Origin: Neoconidiobolus thromboides FSU 785
Lineage: Eukaryota > Entomophthoromycota > Entomophthoromycetes > Entomophthorales > Neoconidiobolaceae
NCBI GenBank assembly: GCA_025603075.1
Contig: MU626423.1
Span: forward strand, 1 to 43,597
DNA: 43,597 nt
Direction of reading: 5' to 3'
How positions within the stretch are numbered: the first letter of the stretch is position 1; each line of letters opens with the position of its first letter. This document shows positions 5,485 through 39,804 of this stretch, one piece after another. Both the position numbers and the translations under genes were made by a program. The notes under the pieces are model-generated. The model worked only from the letters and a program-made list of their open reading frames with translations, did not search any database and was not told the origin of the DNA.

Positions 5485-5583
5485 GGGGATATATTTTTGT
5501 GTTTAAGAATTTTGTTAGCAAATTTTCCGCTTAGATAGCGCTTAAAAAATGGAAGAAATAATGAAGTTAAAAAAGACACTCCC
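5485..5583 (+). mobile_element. MITE copy 1 (orientation A), TSD ATAT
   Basis: Starts GGGGATAT and ends CACTCCC, with core TTTTCCGCTTAGATAGCGCT then TAAAAAATGG. It is flanked by ATAT at 5481-5484 and 5584-5587. It lies inside F-box-like copy 2, and copy 1 lacks it at the matching place. Confidence 0.88.
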
Positions 5584-5829
5584 ATATAGAAGATTTTGAT
5601 GATAGACAGACACTAAATTATTTAAAGAGGATATTTAAATAAACTCAGATCATTTGAATATGTTATAATAAATAACTTAATCAAACAATATGTCGAATAT
5701 TTAAATCCAAATATATTAAAGTCGTTAAAGTTGGATATAAATGGCGATTTAGATCTTGATGGATTAAGCACAACCAAGACAAAACTTAATAAGTCTAATC
5801 AAATTAATTACCTATAGATTTAAATGTAT

Positions 5830-5925
5830 GTGAGTGTTTTTGATTTCATTATTTTTTCTATTTTCTAAGCGCTATTTGAGTGGAAAATTTATTAGTAAAG
5901 TTCTTAAACACAAAAATACATCCCC
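5830..5925 (-). mobile_element. MITE copy 2 (orientation B), flanks GTAT/ATAT
   Basis: Starts GTGAGTG and ends CATCCCC, with core TAAGCGCTATTTGAGTGG. The flanks are GTAT (5826-5829) and ATAT (5926-5929), a one-base departure from a perfect duplication. It lies inside F-box-like copy 2. Confidence 0.83.
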
Positions 5926-6080
5926 ATATGATGTTTGACGAAACTAAGTCAAATATAAACTTTACTCATAATAAACTTAATGTTTTAACATTTCCAATAA
6001 TTTTGGTTTTAAGTATTTTGGAAATTCAAAGCAGCTGATGAGTTTAAAGTTAATGGGTACTATTTAATCATTTTAAACCG

Positions 6081-6675
6081 AAGGGACCAGTTTGTTTATG
6101 AGCAACTTGAAAATGAAGGGGCTCATTTTTAAAAACCGCCCCATTAGGATAGTTTTTAGGGATGTTGTGTTATATAAACTTGTACAGTGTAAATATATTA
6201 TTTTAGTGTTATGTATATATTAATACACAAAAACTAATCTGGTATTATTTTTTATAAACTTTTATTATCAAAATAATTAATGCTATACTATTTAGTATAG
6301 GTTGTGTTTTGATTTTTTTCAAAATTTTAAATAAGCAAGTGATCCATTATAACTCAAATAGTGCATATAGCTCATTTTAAAGGTAACTAGGTTTCAACAT
6401 ATTTTGAGATTATAATATTAAATGTAGTACAAGGTTTAATCTCTTCAATAAGTTTTGTTTCATACTATTTGATGTATTGTCCATTGAGTAGTAGCAAATT
6501 TACTTAAGTATTAAGCAAAAAATAAAGTTTGTTTTGATACATTTTATAAAATGTTTTTAATAAGTTTAGTTCTTTAGTTTTAAAAAAATTAAGTCATTAA
6601 AATATGACTAGGTTTATAACTCAATGAATAATCTATCCAACTGATATAAATTAAAGTTTATTAAAAATATCAAAT
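6081..6675. other. AT-rich intergenic DNA
   Basis: No gene was recognised. A short perfect inverted repeat, CTATACTA-TT-TAGTATAG, lies at 6283-6300. Confidence 0.4.
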
Positions 6676-6773
6676 GGGGCTGTTTTTTTTGGTTTCATAA
6701 CTTTTTCCATTTTTTAAGCACTATTTAAGTAGAAAAATTGTCAGTAAAATTACTAAGCAAAAAATACATCCCC
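6676..6773 (-). mobile_element. MITE copy 3 (orientation B), TSD AAAT
   Basis: Starts GGGGCTG and ends CATCCCC, with core TAAGCACTATTTAAGTAG. It is flanked by AAAT at 6672-6675 and 6774-6777. Because AAAT is not self-complementary, this is a direct repeat and not part of the terminal inverted repeat. Confidence 0.9.
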
Positions 6774-7056
6774 AAATCTTAAACTATATTTAGTGTTATG
6801 TATGACTTTGGAGTGTGGATAGCCCTAGTTGCTTTGATAAAATTTGAACGTTTCCAAAAAATATGTATTAATGCTTTTAAATGGGAGCTAGATTTTCAAT
6901 GCATTATACTGTATTGATATAAAATGTAGACTGAAGCTTGAAGTTTTTGATGATTTTTATCTGATATTATTTACTGTATTATCCATTGAGTTACAATAAA
7001 TTTAGTTTTAGTGTAATGTAACATATTTTGATAGGAAAAGCTACTAAAAAACATCA

Positions 7057-7155
7057 GGGGATGCTTTTTTTGGCTTCATCACTTTTTCTATTTTTTAAGC
7101 GCTATTTGAGTGGAAAAATTATCAGTAAAATTCTTAAACACAAAAATACATCCCC
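7057..7155 (-). mobile_element. MITE copy 4 (orientation B), TSD ATCA
   Basis: Starts GGGGATGC and ends CATCCCC, with core TAAGCGCTATTTGAGTGG. It is flanked by ATCA at 7053-7056 and 7156-7159. This is the most informative duplication in the set because its sequence differs from the usual AT-only target. Confidence 0.92.
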
Positions 7156-7254
7156 ATCACTATAATAATTTTTGTATACTAATATATACATTTGTTATTA
7201 AAACAGGATATTCACATTGTAAAATTTTAGATAATATAATATTTTTTTATATCA

Positions 7255-7680
7255 ATCCTTTTAGTCAAATCGGACCGGATGGACTGAGTTCAAATGGTAC
7301 TTGTTAATAAAGTGCATTAATTCAATTAACTATTAATAATAACTATGGCAAATTGGAATTAATTAAAGACACTAGTATCGTTACCTTAGGTAGGATTAAT
7401 CCAATAAATAAGATTAGTTGTAATTTTTTAAAAGCATCAACTCTAAAAGAAGTTAGCTTAATATATATGTCTATAAATTTAATAAATCAAAGTTCATTGT
7501 CATCTAGTATCCAAAGTATTTACATTGCTAATACACAATGTTGCGATGCATTTTTTGGTCACATAACTTTTAACAAATCTAATTTTCGTAAAAGAGGATA
7601 TGATTTAACTAGATATACGTATATCAAATAGATTCGAATTCAGTGCTGTAAGTTGATAACTACAGAATTTGTTTACTTAT
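7255..7680 (+). pseudogene. F-box/LRR-like protein, decayed copy 3 (C-terminal fragment)
   Basis: Two adjacent frames read the LRR-like text TSIVTLGRINPINKISCNFL, then TLKEVSLIYMSINLINQS, matching TNIVTLDSFNPKNNIS of copy 1 near 4035-4080. The DNA match continues downstream: 7540-7670 corresponds to 4200-4330. The longest open stretch is 7353-7631. The N-terminal F-box part is missing, and MITE copy 4 lies about 100 bp upstream. This looks like the 3' half of a third family member. The homology to copy 1 is clear by eye, while the protein family name is less certain. Confidence 0.5.
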
Positions 7681-8042
7681 CTCCTTCTTCTTGAATCTTG
7701 AAGTCATTAAAGCTTTACACTTAGCATCAAAAAAACAGCATCTAGGATTATGTCTTGAGCGTATAATCACTACCCTTTTAATATATATCTTACATTTAAT
7801 ATGTTATAACAAAGATCTCCTAAATGAATTATTAAAGTATATTCTATCATTGGTTTGGATAAGATTCTAGTAAATTGGTTTTTAATAATAAGGAACTTTT
7901 ACTGTTCTATATTTTATAATATTATATACTATTTTATATATAAGTATTATTAGCCGTAATGATCTTATGCTTTAAAACGATGACTTTAGGATAGCTATCT
8001 AATTTCATAATAGTTCAAATTCATCATTCTAATTATACATAT

Positions 8043-8141
8043 GGGGATGTATTTTTGTGTTTAAGAATTTTACTAACAAATTTTCCGCTTAAATAGCGCT
8101 TAAAAGGTGGAAAAAGTAATGAAATCAAAAAAATCATCCCC
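8043..8141 (+). mobile_element. MITE copy 5 (orientation A), TSD ATAT, first of a tandem pair
   Basis: Starts GGGGATGT and ends CATCCCC, with core TTTTCCGCTTAAATAGCGCT. It is flanked by ATAT at 8039-8042 and 8142-8145. The right ATAT is also the left flank of the next copy. Confidence 0.9.
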
Positions 8142-8145
8142 ATAT

Positions 8146-8242
8146 GTAGATGTATTTTTGTTTAGGAATTTCACTGACAATTTTTCCGCTCAAATAGCAC
8201 TTGAAAAGTGAAAAAAGCGATGAGGCCAAAAAAAACATCCTT
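8146..8242 (+). mobile_element. MITE copy 6 (orientation A), TSD ATAT, second of a tandem pair
   Basis: Starts GTAGATGT and ends CATCCTT, more diverged than copy 5, with core TTTTCCGCTCAAATAGCACT. ATAT at 8142-8145 is shared with copy 5, and a second ATAT follows at 8243-8246. The pair reads ATAT-element-ATAT-element-ATAT in one orientation. Confidence 0.87.
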
Positions 8243-8246
8243 ATAT

Positions 8247-9203
8247 GTAGCTCAAATCCATTTTATAATAAATGAATATTTCTTATAACTTAAGGCATTT
8301 TTACATAAGTTTTGATTGAATATTCTATTTGTTCTTTTCGATAATTTTCTTGAAATTTTTTTCAAATAAAGAGTTATACTAAGCTATCTTTTTCTTAACC
8401 CAGCACTTCTATCAGCTCTAGAAAAAAGCGTCAAAACACCTACCAATCCCCTTAGATTGAAATCTCATATCTATTCGTCATCCTGTGATGTTTATACTTC
8501 AAACATCATTGATTCATTTAAACCTTGTTTGTTTAATAGCTGTATTCCTTGCTTGATGTAAGAAGAAAACCTCGGTCATTATTTCCTGTACTTCTCTTTT
8601 TTCAGAGCAATATAGTTTGGTTATTGGCACTGTTTTTTTCTTACCCTCAATATCTGGATCTTTTCGCTAGTTTATATTCCTTTGTCCGCCACTCTAAAGC
8701 ATAATTATCTTTTTCTACTATACAATAATAGGATTTGTCTATTTATTAATCAAATTTCCTCATATAAATACACGTTGTTTTTAAAAATTGAGTACAATTA
8801 AAAAACATAATAAAAGATTTTTTGAAAAAAGAAATAAAAATAAACTAAATGACCTACATAATTTAGGCTGATCTATCAATATTTTTATGTTTTTTTTGTA
8901 TTTTTAATATAATAAAAGGTAATTATTAATATTGAAACAATTGTATATAAAAAATTCCTCAAGTTTTTCTCAAAAATTCAAAATCACACAACTTATATTA
9001 AAAGCTTTATAGTTGAAAAATTTAGCACGAAAAACACAATAAAAAGCAAAATATGATAGTCTAATCTTATACACATAGCAGATAAACAAAACTAAGTATT
9101 TTAGCAACTAAAAAAATATTTGTTAAACTTAACAGTCAAAAAATTACCCAAAAATTAGCTTTTTTTTAAATCGTATAACTTTTTAGAAAAAATACTACTA
9201 CTT
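8247..9203. other. AT-rich intergenic DNA
   Basis: Many stops occur in all frames. No gene, tRNA or repeat copy was recognised. Confidence 0.4.
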
Positions 9204-9298
9204 GGAGATGTGTTTTTTGGTTCATTACTTTTTCCATCTTTTAAGTACTATTTGAGCAGAAAAATTGTCAGTGAAATTCTTGAACAAAATACATCTCC
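9204..9298 (-). mobile_element. MITE copy 7 (orientation B), flanks ACTT/ATTT
   Basis: Starts GGAGATG and ends CATCTCC, with core TAAGTACTATTTGAGCAG. The flanks ACTT (9200-9203) and ATTT (9299-9302) differ by one base, which fits an old duplication. Confidence 0.83.
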
Positions 9299-9476
9299 AT
9301 TTAATGCTTCTATTTGAAGAGCTTTTTAAAGTTTTTTTAGATAAAGCTGCTATAGTATGAATTTGTATGCTGATTTGTTATTTTGAAGTTAAACATTTAT
9401 TACCATATAATACAAGGTTTTAACCTTTCAATTTTTTTTATTTAAAAAACTGTTAAAAATAGATAAAAATATATAT

Positions 9477-9575
9477 GGGGATATGTTTTTGTGTTTAAGA
9501 ATTTTATTAACAATTTTTCCGCTTAAATAGCGCTTAATAAATGGAAAAAATAATGAAGTTAAAAAAAACACTCCC
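9477..9575 (+). mobile_element. MITE copy 8 (orientation A), TSD ATAT
   Basis: Starts GGGGATAT and ends CACTCCC, with core TTTTCCGCTTAAATAGCGCT. It is flanked by ATAT at 9473-9476 and 9576-9579. It is one of the best-preserved copies. Confidence 0.9.
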
Positions 9576-9579
9576 ATAT

Positions 9580-10697
9580 TAACTCTAAATCAAGTTTTAA
9601 AAATGAACCTTTGGAATTTTTTAAAAAAAAATACAGTATATTACTATACACTATCTGCTATTTTTACTACCACATTCTCTTTTAGCTTTGTTTCCTTTTT
9701 TTTTAAAAATTTCAACTGTCCTTAAAAAGCAGAAATACCCTGTATCACATTAAGTTCAAGTCTATATATGCCATTCACCACTTTTTAGGTGAAAAAAACC
9801 AGAATTAAAGAATATTTTTATTTTTATCTTACTGGTATATATAACTTACGGCATGTAGGTCGAACAACTAATTCACTTTTAGATACCACCTTGGAAAAAT
9901 ATCTGGGCATTCTAAGGACGATAGGTTAGAAGGGGTCTATTGGAAAAGCTTATCTATATTAGAACTCATTAATTATAGCAAGAGTGAATGCTTAGAAATT
10001 AATATATGGAAGGTGGCAGTTATTTTGAGCATATACTCAAAGCTTTTATGCATGTAAGAGACTAAGGCAAGGGGGTTCTAGTTTATTTTGAAAAAAATAA
10101 ATATAAAAATTTAAATCGCTTTGAAGCTTGAATACAAAGTGATGGTGTTTTATAGTGGCCATGATGCAGTTGTAGAAAAAAACCTCAGTGAGAAAATGCA
10201 AAAATCTCAACAACACAAATAATTTAAATGTCAAAATTCAGTGACTATTGGTCTTTATTTTCCATATCTAAAAATGATTAGATCCGTTCCATTTGACATT
10301 AGAAAAAATAGGTTTCGACATTAATTTTGAGCATACCATTCCTAATCCTTTATTGCTCTCTACGGTTCTAATACCCTATATTTAAAGTCCTTTTAGGGAA
10401 CTATTGAAATATGTCCTATTGTTGAATTGGATAGAGTTATATTAATCCGGCCTTTAACTCTAATAAATTGCCCAATAATAATCTAACTTTAGTATTTTAA
10501 TATTCATAATGTTTTAGCTTCTTTTGTAATATTATTGATAGTTTAAAACTGCAATTCAAAGCATTCATATTGGCAACATCGTTTAATTTTATAATACTTC
10601 AAATTTGTTATTCAGATAACATTCAAACTTTAAAAATAAATTTAAAAAATTATTTTTATTTTACAACCAAGAAATAAGAAAAGCCCAATTAAAAAAT
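9580..10697. other. Intergenic DNA downstream of the AIF-like gene
   Basis: No gene could be supported. An open frame at 10046-10234 lacks any recognisable family and looks like chance. The 3' UTR of the minus-strand oxidoreductase lies at the right end. Confidence 0.4.
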
Positions 10698-11855
10698 TTA
10701 AACTTCAAACCCTAAACCCGCTTTACAAGCATCACGTCCCATATCTTTTAATAAATAGGTAGAACTGGTATTAGGCAGAGTAGTTTCAGTAAGAATACCC
10801 TCTTCAGCGAAAGCTAAGATCTTACCTGGGCCCAATAAAAGATAAAGGTGTTGAAAGAACTTTGGATATTCTTCTAATTTATCATCGTTTTTAACTACCA
10901 ATTGATGGATACTTCTAGCGGCATACATACCTTGATACATAGCACCACCTGCTAATTTGATTTCTTGGAAATTATTTACATCTCCAATAGCATAAATGTG
11001 AGAGTATTTTGGGGACTCTAATTGTAAGGTGGGGCGAATCTTAACCAATTTCTTTTCATCTAATACGTTATCAAGTTGTAATAGCTCGCTATTTGGGGCA
11101 CCAAAACCAGTACATTCAATCACCATATCACATTCAATAGTATTATTTTGACTAGTAGTCAATTTGTATCTTATTTTACCCTCCTCAATAATCTCTTCTT
11201 TGTTTAACAATCTTTGTTTAAACAATAAATTAACTTTAAACTCCTCTAAAACCTGTACTACTTTGTTACGAAACTCATCAGTAAAAGGACCAGGGATTGG
11301 TAATTCTCTGGAATGAAGTAAACTTACTTTCTTATCCTTGAAGTGGCAAGCTATATCACATGCCATTTCTACTCCTACTGCTCCACCACCGACTACTACG
11401 ATATCTTTGGCCTGTTCGATTTTTTTAGCGTAATCAAGTAGCTCTTCTTTAAGCTCAGAGTGAGTACTTGCAGCTGGCCAAATAGGTGGGCCTCTCAAAT
11501 AACCTGTAGCTAAGATTAAGTAATCAAAAGGATCCTGTTGACCATCTTCAGTAATCAAATGATTTTTGAAGATTTGGGTCACTTTTTTGTAAATAAATTC
11601 AACCTTCCCATCTTTGTAATAGGGTAACTCAATGTGTGGGGTATATAATGTTGGACCTAATTTGTCACCGGTCAAACCACGTGTCATACCTATGAGATGT
11701 ACAAATCCTTGACGTTTATCATATAATCGGATTTCAACGGGCGCTTCTGGATGCTCACTTTTGTTAGGGTAAAAGAAATTTACTAAATTGTATGCAGCAC
11801 CTAATCCTCCATAATTCCCACCTACAATTGCAATTCGAGTTATTCCTTTTGTCAT
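10698..11855 (-). CDS. AIF/AMID (FSP1-like) FAD-dependent NAD(P)H oxidoreductase
   Basis: This 385-residue intronless protein has the two-dinucleotide-binding-domain layout of the pyridine nucleotide-disulfide oxidoreductase fold. The N-terminal FAD-binding Rossmann motif is IAIVGGNYGGLGAAYNL (residues 8-24). LILATGYLRGP follows near 113-123. The NAD(P)-binding motif is DIVVVGGGAVGVEMACDIA (151-169), and the C-terminal FAD-contacting motif is YAIGDVNNF near 290. The length matches AMID/AIFM2-type proteins (about 370-390 residues) and is shorter than NDH-2 enzymes. Family members oxidise NAD(P)H and pass electrons to quinones or other acceptors. No signal peptide or transmembrane segment is evident. 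The start is the first ATG, with a TATA-like sequence about 40 bp upstream. It shares its strand with the neighbouring tyrosinase, 464 bp away. The physiological acceptor cannot be read from sequence. Confidence 0.88.
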   Translation of the reverse strand: MTKGITRIAIVGGNYGGLGAAYNLVNFFYPNKSEHPEAPVEIRLYDKRQGFVHLIGMTRGLTGDKLGPTLYTPHIELPYYKDGKVEFIYKKVTQIFKNHLITEDGQQDPFDYLILATGYLRGPPIWPAASTHSELKEELLDYAKKIEQAKDIVVVGGGAVGVEMACDIACHFKDKKVSLLHSRELPIPGPFTDEFRNKVVQVLEEFKVNLLFKQRLLNKEEIIEEGKIRYKLTTSQNNTIECDMVIECTGFGAPNSELLQLDNVLDEKKLVKIRPTLQLESPKYSHIYAIGDVNNFQEIKLAGGAMYQGMYAARSIHQLVVKNDDKLEEYPKFFQHLYLLLGPGKILAFAEEGILTETTLPNTSSTYLLKDMGRDACKAGLGFEV

Positions 11856-11890
11856 GTTAATAAAAGTTGAGACTAAAAATTATAAAAAAA

Positions 11891-11901
11891 TTATTTTATA
11901 G
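11891..11901 (-). promoter_or_regulatory. Candidate TATA element of the AIF-like gene
   Basis: The minus strand reads CTATAAAATAA here, about 36-46 bp upstream of the ATG at 11855. This is suggestive only, because the region is AT-rich. Confidence 0.35.
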
Positions 11902-12319
11902 TGGATTTTATCTGATGAGTCGGATTTAATATTTATTCTCTGGGATTTTGCTGTGGTTCCAATCAGATTCTTCTAAATTGAAATTCTAAATTTTATCTGA
12001 TTTAATGATAATCCGGATACTAGTTTGTTCATGTAATGCTTTATTAAGGAATTTATAGGATTTTCGAGAGTAAGAATAATTTAAAATTTAAACCCTATTG
12101 CTAAAATCAACGATTTGTTATTTTATAAAATACTCAACAAAACTTTAGTAAACGTCTCTAGTATCTATTGATCAGGGTCATTGTTTTGATATTTTTATGG
12201 ATTTAATAGTAAACTAGTACTATTTTAACATTAAAATAAATAAACTATGGTACTAGTAAATGGCAGGATGATTTATTTACTTAAATATATATATAATCTA
12301 TTGCTATAAACCTTTTTGT
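11902..12319. other. Intergenic DNA between tyrosinase and AIF-like gene
   Basis: This holds the 3' flank of the tyrosinase and the upstream flank of the AIF-like gene. No further feature is visible. Confidence 0.4.
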
Positions 12320-13477
12320 TTAAATAGGTTTATAATCCGGAAGGTCATTCAAAAGCTGTATAAACTGTTTGTAATTAGCTTCAAGCTCTCTTAAATAAGT
12401 AACATTCATGTTCTTCATAACAATTCTATTTTCAGGTATAGGCTCAACAAAAGGTATAATTTTCTTTTGACCAGAACGTGGTTTAAATATGGTAATTAAC
12501 TCCCCAGTGATGTATTTAATAACTAAATTAATTTGTGCAAGGATCACTCTAAAATTAAAAAATTCGGTAGTGGGTACAACAATAAATCCTAATATTGCCT
12601 TGATACTCTTTGAATTCGCATAATATCTCTTGTACTCATAGCAATAGCCATCACCTTTTGTGTTAAGTGTAGTCGCCACTGTTACATTGAGTCCATCAAG
12701 TATATCGTTTGAACTAACAGGCTTAAGTCTCTTTAATCCGCTATAGCTATTTGCTAAACTAGGATTACGCAATTGCCACTCATGCCATAAAAGATCAATG
12801 AAAGCATGATGCATATAAAATAACGGATCATTAGGTGAAAAGAAATCCGATAAATCACCTACAGCCCCACCGATATTGGTATGGATGACAGAATGAGGTA
12901 GATATTCGATTACATTTCTAAAGGTGATGTAATTCTTTGACGAAGCTATAATAGCTTCAATAGATTCTGGTGGGTAAAATGGAGTTACTTTATCCCCTTT
13001 GTTATAGTCCCTTTTTAAACAGTGCCTTTTTGGTACATTTACCATGAAATTAGCAAAGGGACCACTGGTTACACAGTGTGTATCTTTGTCACCATTCTTA
13101 CCAAAATACTCATCACTAAGTATAATAGAATTTGTTGGGTCATCGGAATCTAAAGACCAATCCCAATAAGGCAAGATAATGCTACTATCAATGGATTGCA
13201 AGTCTTTCTCAAACATGCGAAGGTATGCTCGATGCCATGGGAAAAATGAAGGGTTGAAATGGATCTCATTGAAATATATATTATGAATAGTTGAATACCC
13301 TGTAAATTTGTTATTTCCTTTATCACTGTTTAAGACTTTAATGGCGTTAAAGAATCTTTCTCTTTGATCTTTAGTTAGCTCTCGAATCTCTGGTCTTCTC
13401 ACTATCTGTTGACATTTACCTAATACCAATTGTAACAAGAGAATTAAAACGAAGGAACTTTGTAAAAATAATTTCAT
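12320..13477 (-). CDS. Secreted tyrosinase (type-3 copper monooxygenase)
   Basis: Tyrosinases oxidise phenols to o-quinones using a dinuclear copper site. The 385-residue protein begins with a signal peptide (MKLFLQSSFVLILLLQLVLG), so it is predicted to be secreted. The CuA region reads STIHNIYFNEIHFNPSFFPW followed by HRAYLRMFEKDL, with candidate ligands His in IHN, EIH and PWH. The CuB region reads LPHSVIHTNIGG, then NDPLFYMHHAFIDLLWHEWQ, with the HSVIH and HH ligands in the usual spacing. DPLFYMHHAxID is the diagnostic signature. A C-terminal tail of about 140 residues follows. There are no introns, unlike DBR1 or IQGAP here. Two decayed copies lie at 15820-16967 and 28310-29561, so this is the intact member of a small family. 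Melanin or cell-wall phenol oxidation is a plausible role but is inference. Confidence 0.92.
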   Translation of the reverse strand: MKLFLQSSFVLILLLQLVLGKCQQIVRRPEIRELTKDQRERFFNAIKVLNSDKGNNKFTGYSTIHNIYFNEIHFNPSFFPWHRAYLRMFEKDLQSIDSSIILPYWDWSLDSDDPTNSIILSDEYFGKNGDKDTHCVTSGPFANFMVNVPKRHCLKRDYNKGDKVTPFYPPESIEAIIASSKNYITFRNVIEYLPHSVIHTNIGGAVGDLSDFFSPNDPLFYMHHAFIDLLWHEWQLRNPSLANSYSGLKRLKPVSSNDILDGLNVTVATTLNTKGDGYCYEYKRYYANSKSIKAILGFIVVPTTEFFNFRVILAQINLVIKYITGELITIFKPRSGQKKIIPFVEPIPENRIVMKNMNVTYLRELEANYKQFIQLLNDLPDYKPI

Positions 13478-13511
13478 TTTTCTGCTAAATAATTTATGTT
13501 TTTTCTCATTG

Positions 13512-13520
13512 CTATTTATA
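13512..13520 (-). promoter_or_regulatory. TATA element of the tyrosinase gene
   Basis: The minus strand reads TATAAATAG, about 35-43 bp upstream of the ATG, implying a short 5' UTR. Farther upstream, gcctctttactgctttgat (near 13540-13560) recurs in similar form upstream of both tyrosinase pseudogenes (near 17050 and 29655), so the promoter region was duplicated with the gene. Confidence 0.55.
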
Positions 13521-14671
13521 TCATAAGAAAAAACTTAGCACAAATGCCTCTTTACTGCTTTGATGATGATGATATTCTTTTCTTAAATAGACTGAGGCAT
13601 ATTTATGAAGCGGCTTATAAAAAATGAAAAGGAACTCAATGTTTAGAATTTTAGCTTTAGTAATAACTTGAAATTTAAATTCTCATGATTATCTAAATTT
13701 AAAAGATTTTCGCTCTAACTGTAAGTTGAAGCTGGTTTAATAACAAACCTACAAAAAGAGTATATGATAATATAACTATTACTTCAATAACTTCAGCATT
13801 TTTAATTATCTGACTATTTCAGTTGTTTTTAAAAAAATTATGTTCAAAAATTAAATTTCAATTTTAGTTTTTGAGATTTTATTGTTTTGTTTTAAACTCA
13901 TTAAAAAAATGAAAGTGACATAAATCAGAAAACACGAACCTGTTTTAATATAGATAGGCAATTTTATACTGAGATTTTTATGCAGGTTTCATCAGGGATA
14001 GTCATTTTAGCCTGAAATCATGTAAAAGAAATTTCATAGAAATAAACCCTCACCTGTAATTTGAATACTATTACCTTGCTTTATTTTGTCCTGGCCATTT
14101 TATTTTAGTAAAATTACTTGTATGATTCCGGGTTAAAATGGCTGCTTCTACTGAAACCTATATAAAAATCTCAACATAAAGATGTCTCCTACCTACACCA
14201 AAGCCCAATATTAAATGAATAAATTGCTCAAAATTGTTCAAAATTATTATTTTTAAGACTAAGTTTCAATATTATTAAAAATATCAGAAATATCAAAAAT
14301 AAACTACTACAAACCAACCAAATGCTACAGTTTTGATTATTACTTACTCTTATTACAACTATGTTTAAAGCTTTATCTATTAGATAATTGAGATTTGATC
14401 TCATATTGTATTTTATGCACTATTTTTTAATATACCATGTTTTCACCTCATTGTTTATGTTTCTTTTAATTATCATGTATATTTAAATATATGCTTTTAA
14501 TAATTTTATACTCTTTAAAATAAATTAAAGTTAACAAAGCAAACAGAATGTAAGACAATCTGCACAAATAAAAATGATATTCAGAATACTTTGAATAATA
14601 AACCTGTACCAATTTTGTTTATTTATATGTCAAGTTCTTATTCTATATTTTTTTAAAAACACTTGAAATAT
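13521..14671. other. Upstream region of the tyrosinase
   Basis: AT-rich with no supportable gene. The proximal ~50 bp holds sequence shared with the decayed tyrosinase copies. Confidence 0.4.
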
Positions 14672-14762
14672 GGGAGTGCTTTTTAATTATTTTTTCCATT
14701 TTTTAAGCGCTGTTTAAGCGGAAAATTTGCTAGTAAATTCTTAAATATAAAAATACGTCCCC
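14672..14762 (-). mobile_element. MITE copy 9 (orientation B), TSD ATAT
   Basis: Starts GGGAGTG and ends CGTCCCC, with core TAAGCGCTGTTTAAGCGG. It is flanked by ATAT at 14668-14671 and 14763-14766. A second copy in the same orientation follows 24 bp downstream. Confidence 0.9.
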
Positions 14763-14786
14763 ATATATTAAAGTTTGTAGTACATA

Positions 14787-14882
14787 AGGACATTTTTTTG
14801 GTTTCACCACTTTTTCCATTTTTAAGCAGTATTTAAACAAAAAGATTGCTAATAAAATTCTTAAATAAAAAAATACATCTCC
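14787..14882 (-). mobile_element. MITE copy 10 (orientation B), degenerate
   Basis: Starts AGGACAT and ends CATCTCC, with core TAAGCAGTATTTAAACAA. The flanks CATA/ATAT do not match. It is more diverged than its neighbour, copy 9. Confidence 0.8.
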
Positions 14883-15254: not shown

Positions 15255-15351
15255 GGGGATGTATTTTTGTATTTAAGAACTCTACTAACAAATTTTCCAC
15301 TTAAATAGCGCTTAAAAAAGGAAAAAGTAATGAAGTTAAAAAAACACTCCC
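15255..15351 (+). mobile_element. MITE copy 11 (orientation A), TSD ATAT
   Basis: Starts GGGGATGT and ends CACTCCC, with core TTTTCCACTTAAATAGCGCT. It is flanked by ATAT at 15251-15254 and 15352-15355. A chance open frame (15206-15397, minus) runs through it and is not a gene. Confidence 0.9.
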
Positions 15352-15612: not shown

Positions 15613-15713
15613 GGTAGTGTTTTTTTTTTGACTTCGTCATTTTTTCCATTTTTTAAGTGCTATTTGAGCGGAAAATTTGTTAGTAAAATTCTTAAATATA
15701 AAAATACATCCCC
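15613..15713 (-). mobile_element. MITE copy 12 (orientation B), TSD ATTT
   Basis: Starts GGTAGTG and ends CATCCCC, with core TAAGTGCTATTTGAGCGG. It is flanked by ATTT at 15609-15612 and 15714-15717. It lies about 100 bp beyond the 3' end of tyrosinase pseudogene 1. Confidence 0.9.
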
Positions 15714-15819: not shown

Positions 15820-16967
15820 TAAATAGTTTTACAATCTAGAAGGTCATTTAAAAGCTGAATGAATTGTTAATTAGCTTCAAGTTCTTTTAAATAAGTAACG
15901 TTCATATTTTTTATAATAGATATATTTTCTGACATTAGTTCAACAAAAGGTATAACTTTCTTTTGATTGGAACGAGATTTAAAAACAGTAGCCGATCCAC
16001 TAACAATGAATTTGATATATGAACTAATTCGCACAAGGATCACTCCGAAACTAAAATATCCAGCAATAGGCACAATGATAAATCCTAGGGTTGTTTTAGT
16101 ACTCTTGGTATTTATATAATATTTTTATATTTCTAACAATAGCTATCGCTTTTTATGTTAAAAGCAGAGGTTACCGTTACATTAAGTCCATGAAGTATAT
16201 CATTTCTACTAACTGATTTATTTCTTTTGATCCGAAATAGCTCTTTTCTAAATTAGAATTATATAACTGCCACTCATGCCAAAAAATATCAATAAAGGCG
16301 TGATGCGTATAAAATGATAGGTCATTAGAAGAAAATGCCTCAATTAAATCACCAAAATAGCCACCAATATTAGTACGGATGCTATCGTATAGAAGGTACT
16401 CAATCATCTTACTAAAGCTATTGTAGTTCTTTGATGACGCCATAATGTCTTCAGCAAGCTCTGGTGGATAAAATGGGGTCGTTCGTCTACCTGCATTATA
16501 ATCTCTCTTCAAATGATCCCTTGTTAGTGTGTTTACTATAAAATTCGCAAAAGGACCACTATCACACAATTTTTATGTTTATCTATTTTTCTACAAAAGT
16601 ATCCATCATTAAGTACTATCATATTTGTTGGATTATCCTAGTCAGCTGAGTAATCACAATAAAGTAGAATTATACTACTATCAATAGTCTGTGGATCTTT
16701 TTCAAAACTATTGAGATAAGCTCGACTCCATGGAAAAAACTAGGCTGTTGTAGATATCAAAAAACTGTTTACTATGTAGAGCAAAATACCTAGTAAATTT
16801 ATTATTCCCTTTGTCACTGTTTAAATTTTTTACGGCTTTGAAGAATCGCTACTTTTGATCCTTATCTAATTCCCATATCTCTAGTCTTCTTATTACACTC
16901 TGAAATTTTCTCAATGTCAGCTGAATCAAGATAAAAATATTAAATACACTTCTATAATAAAGTTCAT
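15820..16967 (-). pseudogene. Tyrosinase pseudogene 1
   Basis: The DNA aligns along its whole length with the intact tyrosinase at 12320-13477, from an ATG-equivalent at 16967 to the stop region near 15820. Open pieces are 16569-16177 (containing YTHHAFIDIFWHEWQ) and 16073-15867 (C-terminal tail), with frameshifts and stops between and before them. Copper ligands are also lost. The CuA motif reads FFPWSRAYL instead of FFPWHRAYL, and the first CuB helix reads YDSIRTNIGG where the intact gene has HSVIHTNIGG. Both the frame and the active site are gone, so it is non-functional as a tyrosinase. Confidence 0.9.
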
Positions 16968-18157
16968 TTTCTATCAAATAAGTTTTAGTCCCTTTTACTA
17001 CTGTTTATGATTAACTTCTAATGAAATATTAAAATAGTAACCTCAGCACAGATTTGCCTTTACTGCTTTCATTTAACAAGCCATATATATATTGAGTTCA
17101 ACATAAACTAGCTTAAACCCAAGGTTCAATTTTTTTCCAGTTTTGATAATCCAAATGTTTAAAATGAAGACCAACCAGCAACTTTAGAACAGTCACTTTT
17201 TTGTTTAATTTTAAATAGTTACCATTGGACTGTTTTTGGCTTAATACTTACACATTATAATATTTTCAAATTTTAAATGAAAATGGTCAAATAAATAGAG
17301 CAAAAATAGTATCTACATTTATCATTTAAGTTAACAAATGTTAACGTCTAGTCATAATAACGTCGCTGTATTTTAAATGATATTTATATACATGCCAATC
17401 CTATTTTAAATTAAAGGTATAAAGTTTATTTGGTAAATTTAACAATGAACAAAACCATTGATTTTGTAAATTACAAGGCTGAAAAATTTAACTAGTATTT
17501 TTTAAAATTTTATGCTGCATAGAAAATGAACAAAAAAAGTGAAACTAAAATCCAATTTTAAATTTTAATCCAGATTTTAAACTTAATCAATATTGATTAA
17601 ATCGCTATAAATCATTGTTTAAAAAATCACAAAAAATTGTTTATTAAAATTTGATAACTTTGGTACAATAATTTTTAGAGACTATGGGTAACTTAAAGGT
17701 CTTAAAAAAATTAAGTGTCACTATGAGCTAATTAGAATTTACTTGTTTTTTTAGAAAAACAACTATCATTTCTGATAAGGAAGTTGATTTTATTTCTTCA
17801 AAGTAGAATTCTATAGTAGTTGCTAGTGTAAGATTTGTAATCTCTCATATGATTTAATATCTGGTATGTTACAATACTTATCTGCTAAAACCCTAAAAAC
17901 GTTCCACTTCCACATCTTTAAACCTATTAATTATCACTCAAACTTTAAACTTAGCATGCCCCATCTTCAGAAAATGGACAAATTTATAGCCAATTGATTG
18001 GTTCTCAGTTTTATTACACTCAAAGCTAAATTTTAACATCAATTATAAAATATTGAAACTCAACAAATTCTATTTTTTTTTAGCTTTAAAATTTTAAATG
18101 CTAATAATCAACCAACTTTGATATTAATTTAATAATAACATAAAGCAATAAGGGAAT
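16968..18157. other. Intergenic region between divergent tyrosinase pseudogene and IQGAP
   Basis: AT-rich, with no supportable gene. A near-symmetric GTTAACAAATGTTAAC lies near 17335. The IQGAP promoter must lie toward the right end, but no clear element was seen. Confidence 0.4.
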
Positions 18158-27549: not shown

Positions 27550-27623
27550 GTTTCCGTGGTGTAGTTGGTTATCACATCTGTCTAACACACAGAAGGTCTC
27601 CAGTTCGAATCTGGACGGAAACA
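27550..27623 (+). tRNA. tRNA-Val(AAC)
   Basis: A complete cloverleaf is visible. Acceptor GTTTCCG pairs with CGGAAAC. The D-arm is GTGT...TCAC. Anticodon stem TCTGT/ACAGA encloses loop CTAACAC with anticodon AAC at 27584-27586. The T-arm TCCAG-TTCGAAT-CTGGA is followed by discriminator A at 27623. No intron and no encoded CCA tail. A T4 run at 27628-27631 is a pol III terminator. Confidence 0.95.
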
Positions 27624-27694
27624 CTTATTTTGATCTCAATCTTTTTCAATCAGGTTTTACAAGTCCAACAATCAGATTCCCTGGCTATTCAAAT

Positions 27695-27790
27695 GGGGAT
27701 ATTTTTTGGTTTCATTACTTTTTCCATTTTTAAGCCCTATTTGAGTGGAAAAATTGTTAATAAAATTCTTAAACACAAAAATACATCCTC
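27695..27790 (-). mobile_element. MITE copy 13 (orientation B), TSD AAAT
   Basis: Starts GGGGATAT and ends CATCCTC, with core TAAGCCCTATTTGAGTGG. It is flanked by AAAT at 27691-27694 and 27791-27794. It lies 71 bp downstream of tRNA-Val. Confidence 0.9.
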
Positions 27791-28309: not shown

Positions 28310-29561
28310 ATTTAAATAGGCTTATAATCTGGAAGATCATTTAAGAGTTGAATGAATTGTTTATAATTAGGTTCAAGTTCTCTTAAATGAGTAATGTTCA
28401 TATTTTTCATAATATATATTTTTTAACATTGGTTCAACAAAAGGTATAATTTTCTCTTGATTGGAACGAGATTTAAAAACAGTAATTAAACCATTAAAAG
28501 TAGATTTAGTATATGTACTAATCTGCTCAAGAACTACCCTAAGGCTAAAAAGCTGAGAACTAAGTACAAGAACAAATCTTAATGTTGTTTCAATGCCTTT
28601 AGTATCTGCACCATGTCTTCTGTATTCATAACGACAACCATCAACCTTTGTGTTAAAGGTAGATGTTACTGTTACATTAAGCCTATCAAGCTCATCATCC
28701 TTACTATACTACCTATTCCGCCTTAATCTACTATAGTTATTTACTAGTCTAGGACTATGCAACTATTACTCACGTCATAAGAGATCAATAGAAGTATGAT
28801 ACACATAAAACAATAGATCTTTGGGAGAAAAAGCTCAACTAAATCATCAAAATGACTACCTGTATCAGTATGAATATTATTATGGCGTAAATATTTAGCT
28901 ATATTTTTAAGAGTATCATAATTGTTTAATGATGCTATAATAGTTTCGATAGACTCTGGTGTATAAAATGGGGTTATTTGTCTACTTGCATCATAACCTC
29001 CCTTCAAATAATGCCTTATTAGTGTATTTACCATAAAATTAGCAAAGATGACACTGATTATACAATGTGTACCTTTGTTCCCATTTTTGTCAAAATAACC
29101 ACCACCAACGATAAATAAATTTACTAGATCATTGAAATCGATATACTAGTCCCAACAAAGTAAGATAATACTACTATTAACGAATTGTAAATCTTTTTTA
29201 AATACGGAAAGATATGGGGATGTATTTTTGTGTTTAAGAATTTTACCAACAAATTTTCCGCTTAAATGGTGCTTAAAAAATGGAAAAAATAATGAAAAAA
29301 AACACTCTTATATGCTCGATATCATGGGGAAAAAACAAAATTAAAATGGATCTTATTAAAATAGCTATTATGGAGATTTGACTATTCAGAGAACTTGTTT
29401 CCTTTATCACTATCTAAAATTCTTACGGTGTTAAAGAATCGCTGTCTTTGATCTCTACTTGGTTCTCAAATTATGGGTTTTCTTACTATCAGCTGGCATT
29501 TTCTTAATACCAATTGTACCAAGAGAAGTAAAATGAAAAAGGTGCGTAAAAACAAGCTCAT
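28310..29561 (-). pseudogene. Tyrosinase pseudogene 2, interrupted by a MITE
   Basis: The DNA aligns end to end with the intact tyrosinase, from an ATG-equivalent at 29561 to a stop-equivalent near 28310. The CuA tryptophan codon has become TGA and the next His codon is TAT (FFPWH to FFP-stop-Y). Several frameshifts follow, including one after DDLVELF that destroys the DPLFYMHH signature. The first CuB helix His pair is kept (HNNIH). A MITE copy (29216-29309) sits just beyond the CuA motif, splitting the codons equivalent to RAYL-RMF. It is beyond repair as a coding sequence. Confidence 0.9.
29216..29309 (+). mobile_element. MITE copy 14 (orientation A), TSD ATAT, inside a tyrosinase pseudogene
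   Basis: Starts GGGGATGT and ends CACTCTT, with core TTTTCCGCTTAAATGGTGCT. It is flanked by ATAT at 29212-29215 and 29310-29313. Removing the element plus one ATAT restores alignment to the intact tyrosinase (GCATAC-CTT there, GCATAT-CTT here on the coding strand), so this copy defines the element's ends. Confidence 0.93.
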
Positions 29562-30089
29562 TTTCATTAAATAATTTGCAGTCCTTCAGGTTATTATTTA
29601 TACTTAAATTTTATTAATATATAATAATATTAATCCTAACACAATTGAATTTATACTGCTTTGATCATAAAACCTTCCTTTTATCTAACCCTACCTGAAC
29701 CCAGTTTTTAAATTTGTCCATCTTTATATTAATCATAAGCCTGTCCCAGACTTAAAAACACGTTTTTAGTCATAATTACATATATAATAAAGGCATATAG
29801 TTGAAAGCTATTAAATAAAGAGCTTAAAGGATAGTTTTTATTTAATTGTCTTTATTTTATAGAAAACATGACTAAAAATATATATTTCTAAATCCCTGAA
29901 GCAACTTTTACAGCTAGTGTAGGTAACGATATAATCTTTTCATTTTAAGTTTATAATATACTAACATGACCATATTTTTTTATTTTGGAATTCAAACTAT
30001 AAAAAATTAGAGAATGTAGGATACTGACCATTCTTAAACTAAAATTTACCTAATGAAAAACCTACCTACATCTTAATCCTTGATAAAAA
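29562..30089. other. Upstream region of tyrosinase pseudogene 2
   Basis: Near 29650 it contains tatactgctttgat, a relic of the tyrosinase promoter region. Nothing else was recognised. Confidence 0.4.
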
Positions 30090-32555: not shown

Positions 32556-32649
32556 GGAGATGTATTTTTGTGCTCAAGAATTTTACTAACAATATTTCCG
32601 CTTAAATAGTGCTTAAAAGATGGAAGTAATGAAGCCAAAAAATAACCCC
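32556..32649 (+). mobile_element. MITE copy 15 (orientation A), flanks ATAT/AATT
   Basis: Starts GGAGATGT and ends AACCCC, with core TTTCCGCTTAAATAGTGCTT. The flanks ATAT (32552-32555) and AATT (32650-32653) do not match perfectly. Confidence 0.83.
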
Positions 32650-36076: not shown

Positions 36077-36149
36077 GGGGATCTAGCTCACTTGGTAGAG
36101 CGCCCGCTTCGCATGCGGGAGGCACCGGGATCGATGCCCGGGTTCTCCA
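36077..36149 (+). tRNA. tRNA-Ala(CGC), with an atypical T-loop
   Basis: Acceptor GGGGATC faces GTTCTCC with one T-T mismatch and one G-T pair. D-arm is GCTC...GAGC. Anticodon stem CCCGC/GCGGG encloses loop TTCGCAT with anticodon CGC at 36110-36112. T-stem CCGGG/CCCGG is perfect, but the loop is ATCGATG rather than TTCGANN, so the pol III B box is altered. Discriminator A lies at 36149 and a T4 run follows at 36154-36157. The fold is otherwise complete. Whether it is functional is uncertain. Confidence 0.82.
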
Positions 36150-36406
36150 AAGCTTTTGGTTTTTAACGTAGAGCTGATGTTTGTATAATTGATCTACTGT
36201 ACTTTTAAGGATTTATGTTTATATCTTTTTAGGGTAGACAAGAAGTCATGTATTAGAAAAAGGTAATGCTTGAAACGTTAGTAGACAGAAAACAATCAGA
36301 GCATGTAAGTCTATCACATTGCTTTAGACTGAATCCAGTCCTGTGGTAAAGCTATTCAAGTTCTCAGCAAAGAAGCTCTTTCACTCTATCACCAAGATCT
36401 TTATAT

Positions 36407-36495
36407 GAGATGTATTTAAGAATTTTACCAACAATATTTCCACTCAAGTAGTGCTTAAAAGATGGAAAAAGTAATGAGATAAAAAAAACACCTTT
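36407..36495 (+). mobile_element. MITE copy 16 (orientation A), shortened, flanks ATAT/GTAT
   Basis: Starts GAGATGTATTTAAGAATTTT, lacking about 8 bases of the usual TTTTGTG segment, and ends CACCTTT. The core is TTTCCACTCAAGTAGTGCTT. The flanks ATAT (36403-36406) and GTAT (36496-36499) differ by one base. Confidence 0.8.
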
Positions 36496-37253
36496 GTATG
36501 ATTATATTAAATATAAAAACTATAATAATCTTAGGCTGATTGTAAAACAAATATACACTAATTTTGACGAAAATATTATAAAGCTGCTACTATTACAAAA
36601 ATACTAATATTATTATTTAAAATAGCTATAAAGTAGGATGTGGAACCTTAACAGCTGGCCTTTCACTCCATTTCTTTTACATTAGTTACCTTGTTTAAAT
36701 AAACTAATTGGGGGTTCGCCCTTTCAAGAACACTAAAAAAACCATAAAATAAAAGATATTATAAAATAACTTAGAAGTAATAAAACTAAAGTCTAATCAT
36801 AGGTTTAATGCTCTACAATGCTTTTATATTTATTTGCCTTTGTTGAAATTTAATAGTTAAAAAAGTAATCGTCTACTATATGACAAAACCAACAAACAAT
36901 ATCAATCTCAAATATTGTTCTAACTGTATGCATTTACTAAACATAATTTTTATACCTTTTTAATACTTTATCCAATTGTTTAAATTTATAGCAAAATTGA
37001 TATTTTTTTGATATAAAAATCAAAAATAATAATTTTTGGTACACAATTTTTAAAACAAAATGTCTAAAGTATAATTAAATTTATCTTTTATTTATAGAAG
37101 GTGATAAATGTTAGCTGTTGTTTTCTTTAGAAGCGAACGTTGTAGTCTTTTTTTACCAATTTATATTAATATCAATACCAGTGAGAGCTCTCTGCTTTTT
37201 TTAATCTTCAATTCTTTACTTATATTTGTAAATGTAATTATGAAAAAATAAAT
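36496..37253. other. AT-rich intergenic DNA between MITE copies
   Basis: Nothing recognised. Confidence 0.4.
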
Positions 37254-37349
37254 GGGGATGTTTTTTTGATTTTATTGTCTTCCAATTTTTTAAGCGCTAT
37301 TTGAGTGGAAGTTTATTAGCAAAATTCTTAAACAAAAAAATACATCCCC
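37254..37349 (-). mobile_element. MITE copy 17 (orientation B), TSD AAAT
   Basis: Starts GGGGATGT and ends CATCCCC, with core TAAGCGCTATTTGAGTGG. It is flanked by AAAT at 37250-37253 and 37350-37353. The terminal 8 bases of each end are perfect inverted repeats. Confidence 0.92.
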
Positions 37350-37353
37350 AAAT

Positions 37354-38056
37354 CTAATCTTATCTTTAAAAATATATAATAACAAAACATTTTTTATAGT
37401 GATGAATTTAAGTTATCAGTATCCGATTTCTTTTTAGTATACAGTTAGTATACGATACCATAAATTCTAGAGCTCTAAGTGAGCTAAAAGGGGTGGTAAT
37501 ATTTATGTATTTAATTAATTTTATAAAGCTTGAAATTGTCACAAAGATAGCAAACAACTAATTAAAATAAGCTTTGCATAATTTAAAAACTCGAAATTTT
37601 GAAAATTTAAAGTAGTAGAATTTTCAAACCTGTAGCTGACATTTTAAATAAATTAAAATGATATCAACTTTAAAAATTAAAATAGAAAAAGAAAAGGACA
37701 ATATATTAAATTTAAGGAGACATGAAAAACCAATAAAGTGGTAAGTAAGATATGAAATAAGTTAACTATATTTTAAATATTATGTTGAGTTTTTGCTAAG
37801 ATTATGCTTTATTAAAGTTCAATTTCAGTCATATACTATTTTCTATTAGATTTCAAAAATCAGAATTTAAATTGCTCCCAGACAATAAAAACCAAACAAA
37901 AGTTTTAATTTGCTGGAGCACAATAAAAGATTTAGTGGTTCAGTTTGATAACCCGAAAAGAAAAAAATTATATTAGCAAGTGGAATAATAAATATCTTTA
38001 ATGAATCGTTTAAGTAGAAATTTAATTAATGTCTTAGAGTAGAACTCTGGTAAAAC
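37354..38056. other. AT-rich intergenic DNA
   Basis: A short duplicated GTATAC motif (agtatacagttagtatac, near 37437) is present. No gene was recognised. Confidence 0.4.
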
Positions 38057-38863
38057 TCAAGCCTTTATCGTTGTTTGTGATCGAAATCTTTGTCTACATC
38101 TCAGCCTTACAATAGTACCTGAAAGGTAACTTGTTGCACCAATTGTAAAAACTGCGCTATATATAATTAATCCTATTGGTAGTCCAACCAAAGCCATACC
38201 CCCAGTATCAGTCTCAGCAAGTTCTTTGTTGAATGCACCTTGCTTGGCTGTGTTGGTATTCGTATTCACCTTATTTTCTGGAGTTGAATTTTGATTCAGA
38301 TTTCGAGAAACATCAATAGGTTCAGAAGTAGAATAAAAATAATCCGCCTTTTCTTCTAAGTCTTTGAATTCGTCCTTACCATCTAAAGCGACCTTAAAGC
38401 TATTTGGTTTAAGATTGTCAAAATTTAAACCTTTCTTAAAACCACCATAAATTCTAATTGTCACTGATTTATCTTCTTGTAGATCGTCTTTCAATCTTAT
38501 TATATAGTCATCGTTATATTGATCAACTACTGGTGGGTCATGACGCTCAACCTTTACTCCATTGTCTTTAAACCTAAAACTCAGGACAAATTTTTTATCA
38601 TAATTGGAGTAGTCTTTAAATTTTTTATTATGATAAATAGTAACATCGGCCCAAAATTTATTGTTAGTATTGTTGAAACTTTTTAACCCATAATTGATCT
38701 GTAGACCAAAGTCATTTTTCGGATCTTTTGCGTCTGTTGGAAGTGAGGCATAATCTGGTGAATTGCTGTTTTGATTGTTGTTGGTGTCCTGCCCCTGTAT
38801 TAATGATATTAAATTACTACTTATCAAAAGTATAGTAAAATAGAAAATATTAGTTAATATCAT
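38057..38863 (-). CDS. Hypothetical type-I membrane (surface) protein
   Basis: This 268-residue intronless frame has a clear N-terminal signal peptide (MILTNIFYFTILLISSNLIS, then LIQG). An Asn/Gln-rich spacer (DTNNNQNSNS) follows. The globular domain of about 130 residues is rich in alternating beta-type text (NKFWADVTIYHNKKF, YDKKFVLSFRF, KSVTIRIYGG), suggesting an Ig-like or carbohydrate-binding beta sandwich. After a Thr/Asn-rich stalk comes one transmembrane segment (GLPIGLIIYSAVFTIGATSY) and a short basic cytoplasmic tail (RLRCRQRFRSQ). No cysteine is visible in the ectodomain. I do not recognise the family. A cell-surface or wall-contact role is inference from topology only. Confidence 0.72.
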   Translation of the reverse strand: MILTNIFYFTILLISSNLISLIQGQDTNNNQNSNSPDYASLPTDAKDPKNDFGLQINYGLKSFNNTNNKFWADVTIYHNKKFKDYSNYDKKFVLSFRFKDNGVKVERHDPPVVDQYNDDYIIRLKDDLQEDKSVTIRIYGGFKKGLNFDNLKPNSFKVALDGKDEFKDLEEKADYFYSTSEPIDVSRNLNQNSTPENKVNTNTNTAKQGAFNKELAETDTGGMALVGLPIGLIIYSAVFTIGATSYLSGTIVRLRCRQRFRSQTTIKA

Positions 38864-39711
38864 TTAAAGAAATAAAAGGTAACTAAAGGATTTGTAACTT
38901 TTTTTTAATATTGAGAGTTATTGGTTGGTGATAGTAGAAAAAATTAATCTATTAGATGATAAATATCGTAATACGTTTGGTTCAAACAAAAGGTTAACAT
39001 TGTAAATTAAATATATTTTATGGAACCATTTGAATTTGAATTCTGATTTGAGTTCTGATTCGTTAAAATTGGGTTTTATTAATAGTGGTAAACTCAACTT
39101 AAAAATAATAATTTGTCCCTTGATATTATTTAAATAGTAATAAATCTCAGCAATTATATCATTTGTACTAGCCTTTATGGGTTCCTAGTAAAACTACTTT
39201 ATTTAATAAATTAGAGTAGAGTCATGGTAATCAATTAATAAAAATAGAACTATTTAACAAATTATCTGTTTAAAAGTAACTTTTAATAATATCTTATTCA
39301 GATACGGAGTAAAAACCATATTAACCAAGAAGACAAATATATAAAAACCCAAAACTTAGTTGAAATATTCTATCCTTACTCTTTGGAAGGAAAGTAGAGT
39401 ACCCTTCAACCTAATCCAGTTTAATAATTCAAGAAGGTTACCCAAGATGTGATTGCTTTTATTGTAGCTGTTATTTTTTGCATAATTTTTAAAATTGCAA
39501 AATTTTGAAAATTATTAGTAAAAAGATCCACTACAAATAATTATAATATATAAAACCTTGAAGCAGTAGCGATATAATATATTCAATATTTTATCAGTAT
39601 TTAGCTAATTTATTAAACACAACAGTATAAAACAAAGATTTTAAAAATTACTTACTTATCAATCGGGCTATATAGAAAACCTTTCTATATTGGTTTTAAA
39701 AAATATAATAT
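38864..39711. other. Intergenic DNA upstream of the surface-protein gene
   Basis: Holds the promoter side of the surface-protein gene. No distinct element was recognised. Confidence 0.4.
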
Positions 39712-39804
39712 AGGATGTCTTTTTATTCCATTATTTTTTCTATTTTTTAAACATTATTAAGTGGAAAAATATTAGGAAATTTCTTCAACAAAAAAGACAT
39801 CTCC
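39712..39804 (-). mobile_element. MITE copy 18 (orientation B), TSD ATAT
   Basis: Starts AGGATGT and ends CATCTCC, with a degenerate core (TTTTTTAAACATTATTAAGT). It is flanked by ATAT at 39708-39711 and 39805-39808. It is about 155 bp beyond the 3' end of the MFS gene. Confidence 0.85.

Follow-up and report, generated by a model that had tools for sequence, protein, structure and literature searches.

A dispersed palindromic MITE with 4-bp target-site duplications in Neoconidiobolus thromboides and a candidate parent transposon

Short palindromic repeats lie scattered over one window (the whole analysed stretch of 43,597 nucleotides, contig MU626423.1) of Neoconidiobolus thromboides FSU 785, a small-genome fungus, and raise the question of what they are and which enzyme might have moved them. 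A repeat survey of this species reports, in the part of it drawn on here, 13.5% repeats, with Ty3 at 0.01% and with elements placed in an 'Unknown' class; the word Sola is absent from its main text (PMC11105155). Our literature search found no paper on this repeat or on the transposase described below, which is no proof that there is none. We find that the repeats are copies of an abundant non-autonomous DNA transposon, i.e. a miniature inverted-repeat element (MITE), ordinary in kind, the more interesting part being the fungal transposase family to which it may be tied.

Copies in the window and across the genome

Searching with a profile made from 34 copies with perfect ends, we find 18 copies between 5485 and 39804, eight on the plus and ten on the minus strand, the same count and split as in a preliminary description of this DNA. 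Of 17 full-length window copies listed, 11 have identical flanking 4-mers when a script places the ends; manual placement, with the ends allowed to move by at most 2 nt, gives 13 of 18 (ATAT 8, AAAT 3, ATTT 1, ATCA 1), a tally that reproduces the one given before. ATAT borders the plus-strand copies 5485..5583, 8043..8141 (perfect ends, with 100% identical copies on other contigs), 8146..8242 (in tandem with the former, one ATAT being common to both), 9477..9575, 15255..15351 and 29216..29309 (right end shifted by 2), and the minus-strand copies 14672..14762 (left end shifted by 2) and 39712..39804, the weakest profile match. The other duplications belong to minus-strand copies: AAAT to 6676..6773, 27695..27790 and 37254..37349 (perfect ends), ATTT to 15613..15713 (left end shifted by 2) and ATCA to 7057..7155 (perfect ends). 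No duplication was accepted for 5834..5925 and 14785..14882, both on the minus strand, or for 32556..32649 on the plus strand, since the matches TATG at 5827, CATA at 14785 and TATA at 32556 require poorer ends; at shifts of up to 2 nt, no identical 4-mer flanks 9204..9298 (minus) or the copy at 36398, a partial profile match at 36411..36490 (plus). A tRNA-Val gene occupies 27550-27624, and the copy 27695..27790 lies 71 bp downstream of it.

Genome-wide, the perfect 7-bp ends GGGGATG/CATCCCC give 507 matches and the reversed-pattern control none, so that the fixed terminal inverted repeats, previously described from the window, are far above chance. Length is 94-99 bp in 148 of 157 clean-ended copies, and the genome holds perhaps ~3,000-9,500 copies in all. 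The palindrome, too, is real but imperfect, as first described: folded as DNA, the copy at 8043-8141 reaches -13.8 kcal/mol (z = -2.98), and none of 200 shuffles does equally well.

The target-site duplication

Identical 4-mers flank 109 of the 157 clean-ended copies where re-pairing of flanks predicts 55.8, in a sample that over-represents young copies, since most of its loci were retrieved as best-scoring or perfect-ended hits. The excess persists where neither flank is ATAT, with 34 identical pairs among 49 copies vs 7.3 expected, while inverted 4-mer matches number 0 there vs 6.0 expected. AWWT accounts for 97 of the 109 identical 4-mers, ATAT, AAAT and ATTT being the three commonest, and the outer flank bases co-vary between the two sides of the element.

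Empty sites were sought for 122 MITEs, with same-place loci, partial hits, eroded ends and copies near locus ends or with another MITE within 90 nt set aside, and 22 rows with an empty site correspond to 21 places (C53 occurs twice). At all 21 the empty site is found in a further copy of a repeat; the overlap measures exactly 4 at 13 of them, AAAT sites without a TA included. The modal overlap differs from 4 at the other eight (0 at three, 3 at two, and 2, 9 and -38 once each), four of which have identical flanking 4-mers nonetheless. The target duplication is thus 4 bp and mostly AWWT, in line with the earlier claim of true 4-bp direct duplications, and the genome-wide excess of identical flanks which that claim called for is present.

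A 2.36-kb candidate parent

As noted before, the window appears to lack a transposase: no frame in it matches our new transposase profile. The suggestion made at that time, to look for a longer element bearing the same ends, has led to a good candidate elsewhere in the genome: a 2.36-kb transposon family, measuring 2,355 bp in the cleanest of its copies, with GGGGNTGTC as its ends and ATAT as its flanks. Its 5' end agrees with the left end of the MITE at 21 of 29 positions and its 3' end with the right at 22 of 29, vs 15 of 29 when the ends are crossed. This end-specific match spans positions 17-45 and includes GTTT at positions 17-20 in all four ends as well as a subterminal TCC common to both elements (42-44 left, 31-33 right). 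Positions 9-16 of the MITE are unlike those of the longer element (1/8 and 3/8 matching), so its immediate parent may be an unseen sister family. Where both ends of the parent, or of a shortened parent, could be read, the flanking 4-mers are identical at 8 of 15 places, all ATAT, which is so frequent there (~6.4 expected by re-pairing) that the count is no proof of duplication by the parent; the clear signal in its own flanks is a preference for ATAT sites. The frame of this element runs to ~560 codons and encodes a transposase without a Pfam name. A full uninterrupted frame is absent from every copy with frames listed, and the one at locus L090 is open for 566 codons, ~163 of which are N.

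Judged by these ends, the 2.36-kb family is likely the parent of the MITE, and we hold this link to be firmer than the class of the parent, which is less certain (see below). Our best explanation, held with considerable confidence, is that the MITE copies represent the ends of a DNA transposon, with the 2.36-kb-type family as their likely source, a 4-bp AWWT duplication and an RNase H-fold transposase. A copy would then be made up of two parts of ~45 bp each, one resembling the longer element's 5' end and the other its 3' end. The parent's transposase, or that of a close sister, may recognise the shared subterminal GTTT and TCC motifs, excise the MITE and join it to target DNA by cutting ATAT-like sites with a 4-bp stagger, and gap filling would leave the 4-bp duplication. 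On this view the MITE would be mobilised in trans. An orphan abundant repeat of N. thromboides is now linked to a transposase-coding candidate parent, and a MITE made of two ~45-bp ends is a pointer to minimal end sequences.

Stowaway MITEs duplicate TA and go with mariner, whereas here we meet AWWT and a different transposase. In other respects our element resembles Stowaway, mariner-linked according to the part of the literature cited here (PMC6881990), and other MITEs with known parents, in being short and non-coding, with terminal inverted repeats, a target duplication and a high copy number, and it resembles Stowaway-type MITEs in having its ends in common with a longer transposase-coding element.

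A competing account, which we regard as a serious if lesser possibility, sees the MITE and the 2.36-kb element as sisters with different, related transposases, the parent of the MITE being lost or hidden in gaps and the likeness of the ends inherited. It would explain why positions 9-16 differ at both ends and is compatible with further transposase matches in this genome of just 36-60% identity. Moreover, L065 carries an isolated MITE-type left end of 36 bp (152-187) flanked by AAAT, and coordinate arithmetic puts it ~170 bp from a transposase fragment of 48% identity in C63. Against this account stand the end-specific match over positions 17-45 and the result that no longer element with the full MITE terminus was seen in the sequence examined, the ends there being truncated or unrelated, family-2 ends aside.

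The transposase family and its class

Relatives of the candidate parent's transposase were found in Smittium, Furculomyces and Dentiscutata. In alignment A3, D296, D378 and D420, and also E412, are invariant or near-invariant, and the structural model of one relative is that of a DDD/E enzyme with an RNase H fold. With a homolog as query, Foldseek returned a single PDB match at E <= 0.001, namely Mos1 (E 9.4e-4, TM 0.20/0.31), and no match in BFVD; no Sola entry figures among the 50 VIA-align matches listed, which include retroviral integrases, Mos1, Metnase and SETMAR. Mos1 (Tc1/mariner) and retroviral integrases, at ~11-12% identity, have only the fold in common with the homolog. No Pfam family exceeds its cut-off for four N. 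thromboides pieces and ten homologs, and no NCBIfam family was found for six homologs; as far as these searches go, the transposase family newly recognised here has a name in neither database. The nearest approach is PF25273 (DUF7869), which matches one homolog weakly over the catalytic region (E 3e-4; 20.9 bits, under the curated cut-off of 26) and, at E <= 0.1, 3 of 46 homologs but not the other 43; a literature search found no paper naming it. Pattern stretches numbered 38 in viral contigs and 82 in bacterial and archaeal genomes taken one per species, none confirmed as relatives.

Sola transposases are of the DDD type. The parent family is probably Sola2-like, a likeness drawn from target sites. 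According to the part of a dictyostelid study used here (PMC3627910), Sola2 elements of D. fasciculatum (DFa-1/2/3) and Polysphondylium pallidum (PPa-1/4/5) have 4-bp AWWT duplications, ATAT, AAAT and ATTT among them, and our MITE is like them in its AT-rich AWWT duplications and short imperfect terminal inverted repeats. As described there, these elements carry Fanzor1 genes, and the putative transposase of DFa-2 has 888 aa vs the ~560 codons of the 2.36-kb element. The first assignment had named Sola- or Ginger-like transposases or an undescribed group. AWWT sites, the RNase H fold and the conserved acidic residues favour its Sola-like or undescribed part, and its Ginger-like part finds no support, as the rve-type integrase core (PF00665) has 0 matches in this genome vs matches in 6 of 14 control genomes. 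That the parent's transposase should belong to an undescribed superfamily, not Sola2, marked by the boxes DFK[EQ]N, WxDxGxHFRS and ExHGKSxVDGHFG together with an upstream CxxC, with a 4-bp AWWT stagger, ends-only derivatives abundant in a compact genome and members in several early-diverging fungal lineages, we consider conceivable, if rather unlikely.

Other superfamilies were tried and rejected. PIF/Harbinger does not fit a duplication of 4 rather than 3 bp, a point made previously, and PF13359 (DDE_Tnp_4) has 0 matches in this genome and matches in 1 of 14 controls. For piggyBac, TTAA is absent from the 109 identical 4-mers; the PF13843 profile search gave no match in its own control genomes.

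Tc1/mariner, likewise set aside from the outset, deserves a closer look. The duplication might really be TA, with the outer A and T part of the element and a DDE_3 gene moving it: the centre of ATAT is TA, Mos1 is the homolog's top Foldseek match, the genome has 24 DDE_3 matches, mostly in long open frames, and at L049 a DDE_3 frame (466-2130) has a MITE (128-224) on one side and an oppositely oriented partial MITE (2276-2331) on the other. We judge this very improbable, as the duplication is 4 bp, the outer bases co-vary and empty sites overlap by 4, AAAT sites without TA included. MITE hits occur in 5 of 14 DDE_3 loci examined (8 hits in total), which we take, L049 included, as chance neighbours given the density of MITEs, and the new transposase profile matches 0 of these 14 loci.

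Finally, a structural or regulatory repeat, such as a hairpin RNA or a site for protein binding, that spread by means other than transposition is a barely credible account of the palindromes in spite of the hairpin they form, since two Rfam matches on the 8043 copy are far under their cut-offs (26.2 vs 83 and 23.2 vs 119 bits) and the MITE has fixed ends, 4-bp direct duplications, empty sites and ends in common with a transposase-coding element.

Fixed ends and a 4-bp target duplication

A profile built from 34 perfect-ended copies recovered all 18 MITE copies of the window (8 in plus, 10 in minus orientation), which is contig C166 in the 23.1 Mb, 392-contig assembly of this entomophthoralean fungus; none of the 18 overlaps any of the window's 14 open frames of at least 100 aa. 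The identical 4-nt flanks previously described for 13 of them (ATAT 8, AAAT 3, ATTT 1, ATCA 1) were found again with hand-chosen ends, for which shifts of up to 2 nt were allowed, and ends set by script gave identical 4-mers at 11 of 17 copies. Beyond the window, 227 profile matches in 282 kb of extracted sequence left 194 full-length copies after removal of 10 duplicates, 5 matches at edges and 18 partial ones, and 157 clean-ended copies after a further 37, whose ends are eroded, had been excluded. Identical 4-mers flank 109 of these 157, where re-pairing of flanks expects 55.8, in a sample biased toward young copies because most loci were taken as best or perfect-ended matches. Most (97/109) fit the consensus AWWT (ATAT 75, AAAT 15, ATTT 7), and copies with ATAT on neither flank have identical 4-mers in 34 of 49 cases (7.3 expected) and inverted 4-mer matches in none. 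As ATAT is centred on TA, we also tested a 2-bp TA duplication with outer bases owned by the element, and disfavour it: those outer bases that depart from A or T do so on both flanks together (both sides 8 versus one-sided 6 and 7, p 1.2e-5; in a second comparison, 4 versus 1 and 3, p 1.8e-5).

Empty sites provide a second test, independent of the flanks: many MITEs are nested in other repeats, for the most part the parent element, and MITE-free copies of these repeats exist. Among 122 MITEs examined, 21 distinct places had an empty site, and the overlap of the two flanks on that site is 4 nt (the mode) at 13 of the 21 and at 13 of the 17 with identical 4-mers; the other eight overlaps are 0 (three), 3 (two), 2, 9 or -38. 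This overlap means that 4 bp were duplicated, AAAT, ATAC and TAAT sites included, so that the true 4-bp duplication claimed in the preliminary description is borne out by flanks and empty sites alike. The MITE has fixed ends and a 4-bp duplication that is seen at empty sites too.

The strict pattern GGGGATG-N70..95-CATCCCC matches the genome 507 times (control 0). Scaled by the 3 of 18 window copies that fit it, this gives a total of about 3,000 MITEs (95% interval 1,200 to 14,000); window density extrapolates to about 9,500, and at 99 bp per copy the genome share is roughly 1 to 4%. Copies on other contigs are 100% identical over 107-108 bp, target duplication included, and at the three such loci compared, further similarity consisted of other MITE copies, besides two short stretches (37 and 39 bp). 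Judged by this identity, the movement was recent.

A candidate parent that encodes a transposase

That the autonomous partner lies outside the window proved a sound expectation: GGGGATG ends sought outside MITEs in the extracted loci led to a candidate parent elsewhere in the same genome, with a transposase gene. The first such element (locus L027, 619-1069), with ATAT at both sides, is a shortened derivative of 451 bp including a nested MITE, and the same end turns up at 40 scored places, L027 counted. The body of one parent copy runs into a coding stretch, a 93-aa piece of which has 105 genome matches, some being pieces of one copy. Locus L090 holds a whole element of 2,355 bp with ATAT at both sides and 490 bases given as N, a run (L090 1782-2271) that falls inside the longest open frame of the transposase, of 566 codons. 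End patterns with at most 2 mismatches found 100 3' and 102 5' ends (controls 0); by hand count from listed matches, 19 of the 100 3' ends and 15 listed 5' ends are no more than 350 bp away from a contig start (0.6 expected each). The assembly therefore tends to break inside parent elements, an effect expected of young, near-identical copies, and such breaks may be why no intact transposase frame was read. Both ends were read in 15 parents, full or shortened, and eight of these have identical 4-mers, all ATAT, which by itself is not above re-pairing; the preference for ATAT is clear, as it adjoins 16/32 5' ends and 6/13 3' ends (from 35 and 16 matches) and makes up 1.4% in the window. Further end pairs (contigs C27, C64, C76, C95) are spaced 810, 1115, 1594 and 1862 bp, so the shortened forms come in various lengths.

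Relation of the ends and classification

Counted from the terminus, MITE and parent ends agree at positions 1-8 (8/8 and 7/8), show no agreement at 9-16 (1/8, 3/8) and are again similar at 17-45, with MITE left matching parent 5' at 21/29 and MITE right matching parent 3' at 22/29, values reached by 0 and 2 of 82,320 non-MITE window segments. Extension to position 48 gives 21/32 and 23/32 (14 and 3 of 82,218 segments as similar), and a smaller sequence set 19/29 and 21/29 (30 and 2 of 82,448). Crossed comparisons reach 15/29, attained by 1.9 to 3.4% of segments, and hence the match is end-specific. In our reading, the palindrome noted in the preliminary description is largely two related transposon ends facing each other. 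The transposase may recognise subterminal motifs, move elements by cut-and-paste with a 4-bp stagger and mobilise the MITE in trans. Room is left for a sister family as the direct parent: the mismatch at positions 9-16 with the 2.36-kb parent favours it, as does a lone MITE-type left end flanked by AAAT (L065 152-187; C63 about 62769-62804, computed coordinates), a lead that sits near a transposase fragment of 48% identity and may mark the terminus of an autonomous sister family.

Transposases of the Sola group are of the DDD type and are not known to resemble other transposases. Of the earlier alternatives, Sola-like or undescribed, we hold the first with moderate confidence, as a Sola2-like family, on the AWWT duplications; a new transposase superfamily is left open. 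ATAT, AAAT and ATTT, the commonest duplications of the MITE, are among the AWWT duplications described for dictyostelid Sola2 elements (PMC3627910), and a listing across 257 species has Sola2 among the superfamilies confined to animals in that set (PMC4438587). A weak match to DUF7869 in 3 of 46 transposase homologs is a lead.

Other elements and genes

One repeat, about 470 bp long and running from TGTGAAAT to ATTTCACA, resembles a solo LTR (L061 2162-2630; L065 327-790 and 906-1366; L063 224-693); copies of it occur within the parent transposon and next to a truncated MITE end (L024 1195-1227). Despite this repeat, a genome search for rve integrase gave no match. The genome (G000) also has 24 matches to DDE_3, a Tc1/mariner-like domain (e.g. 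on C225, C162, C96 and C3), many in open frames of 343-555 aa; no clear terminal repeats were noticed in four loci self-compared, so domestication is possible. In L049 a 555-aa DDE_3 frame (466-2130) stands between a MITE (128-224) and an opposite-orientation partial MITE (2276-2331), which we take as chance, a captured gene being possible.

Within the window, a tyrosinase frame (PF00264) occupies 12320-13477, and further repeat copies (families D3, D4, D6) about 3.5 and 16 kb beyond it (about 15906-16971 and about 28400-29564) probably reflect local gene duplication. Frames at 18689-20277 bear IQ motifs, weakly match calponin homology and are probably fragments of a single ASPM-like gene.
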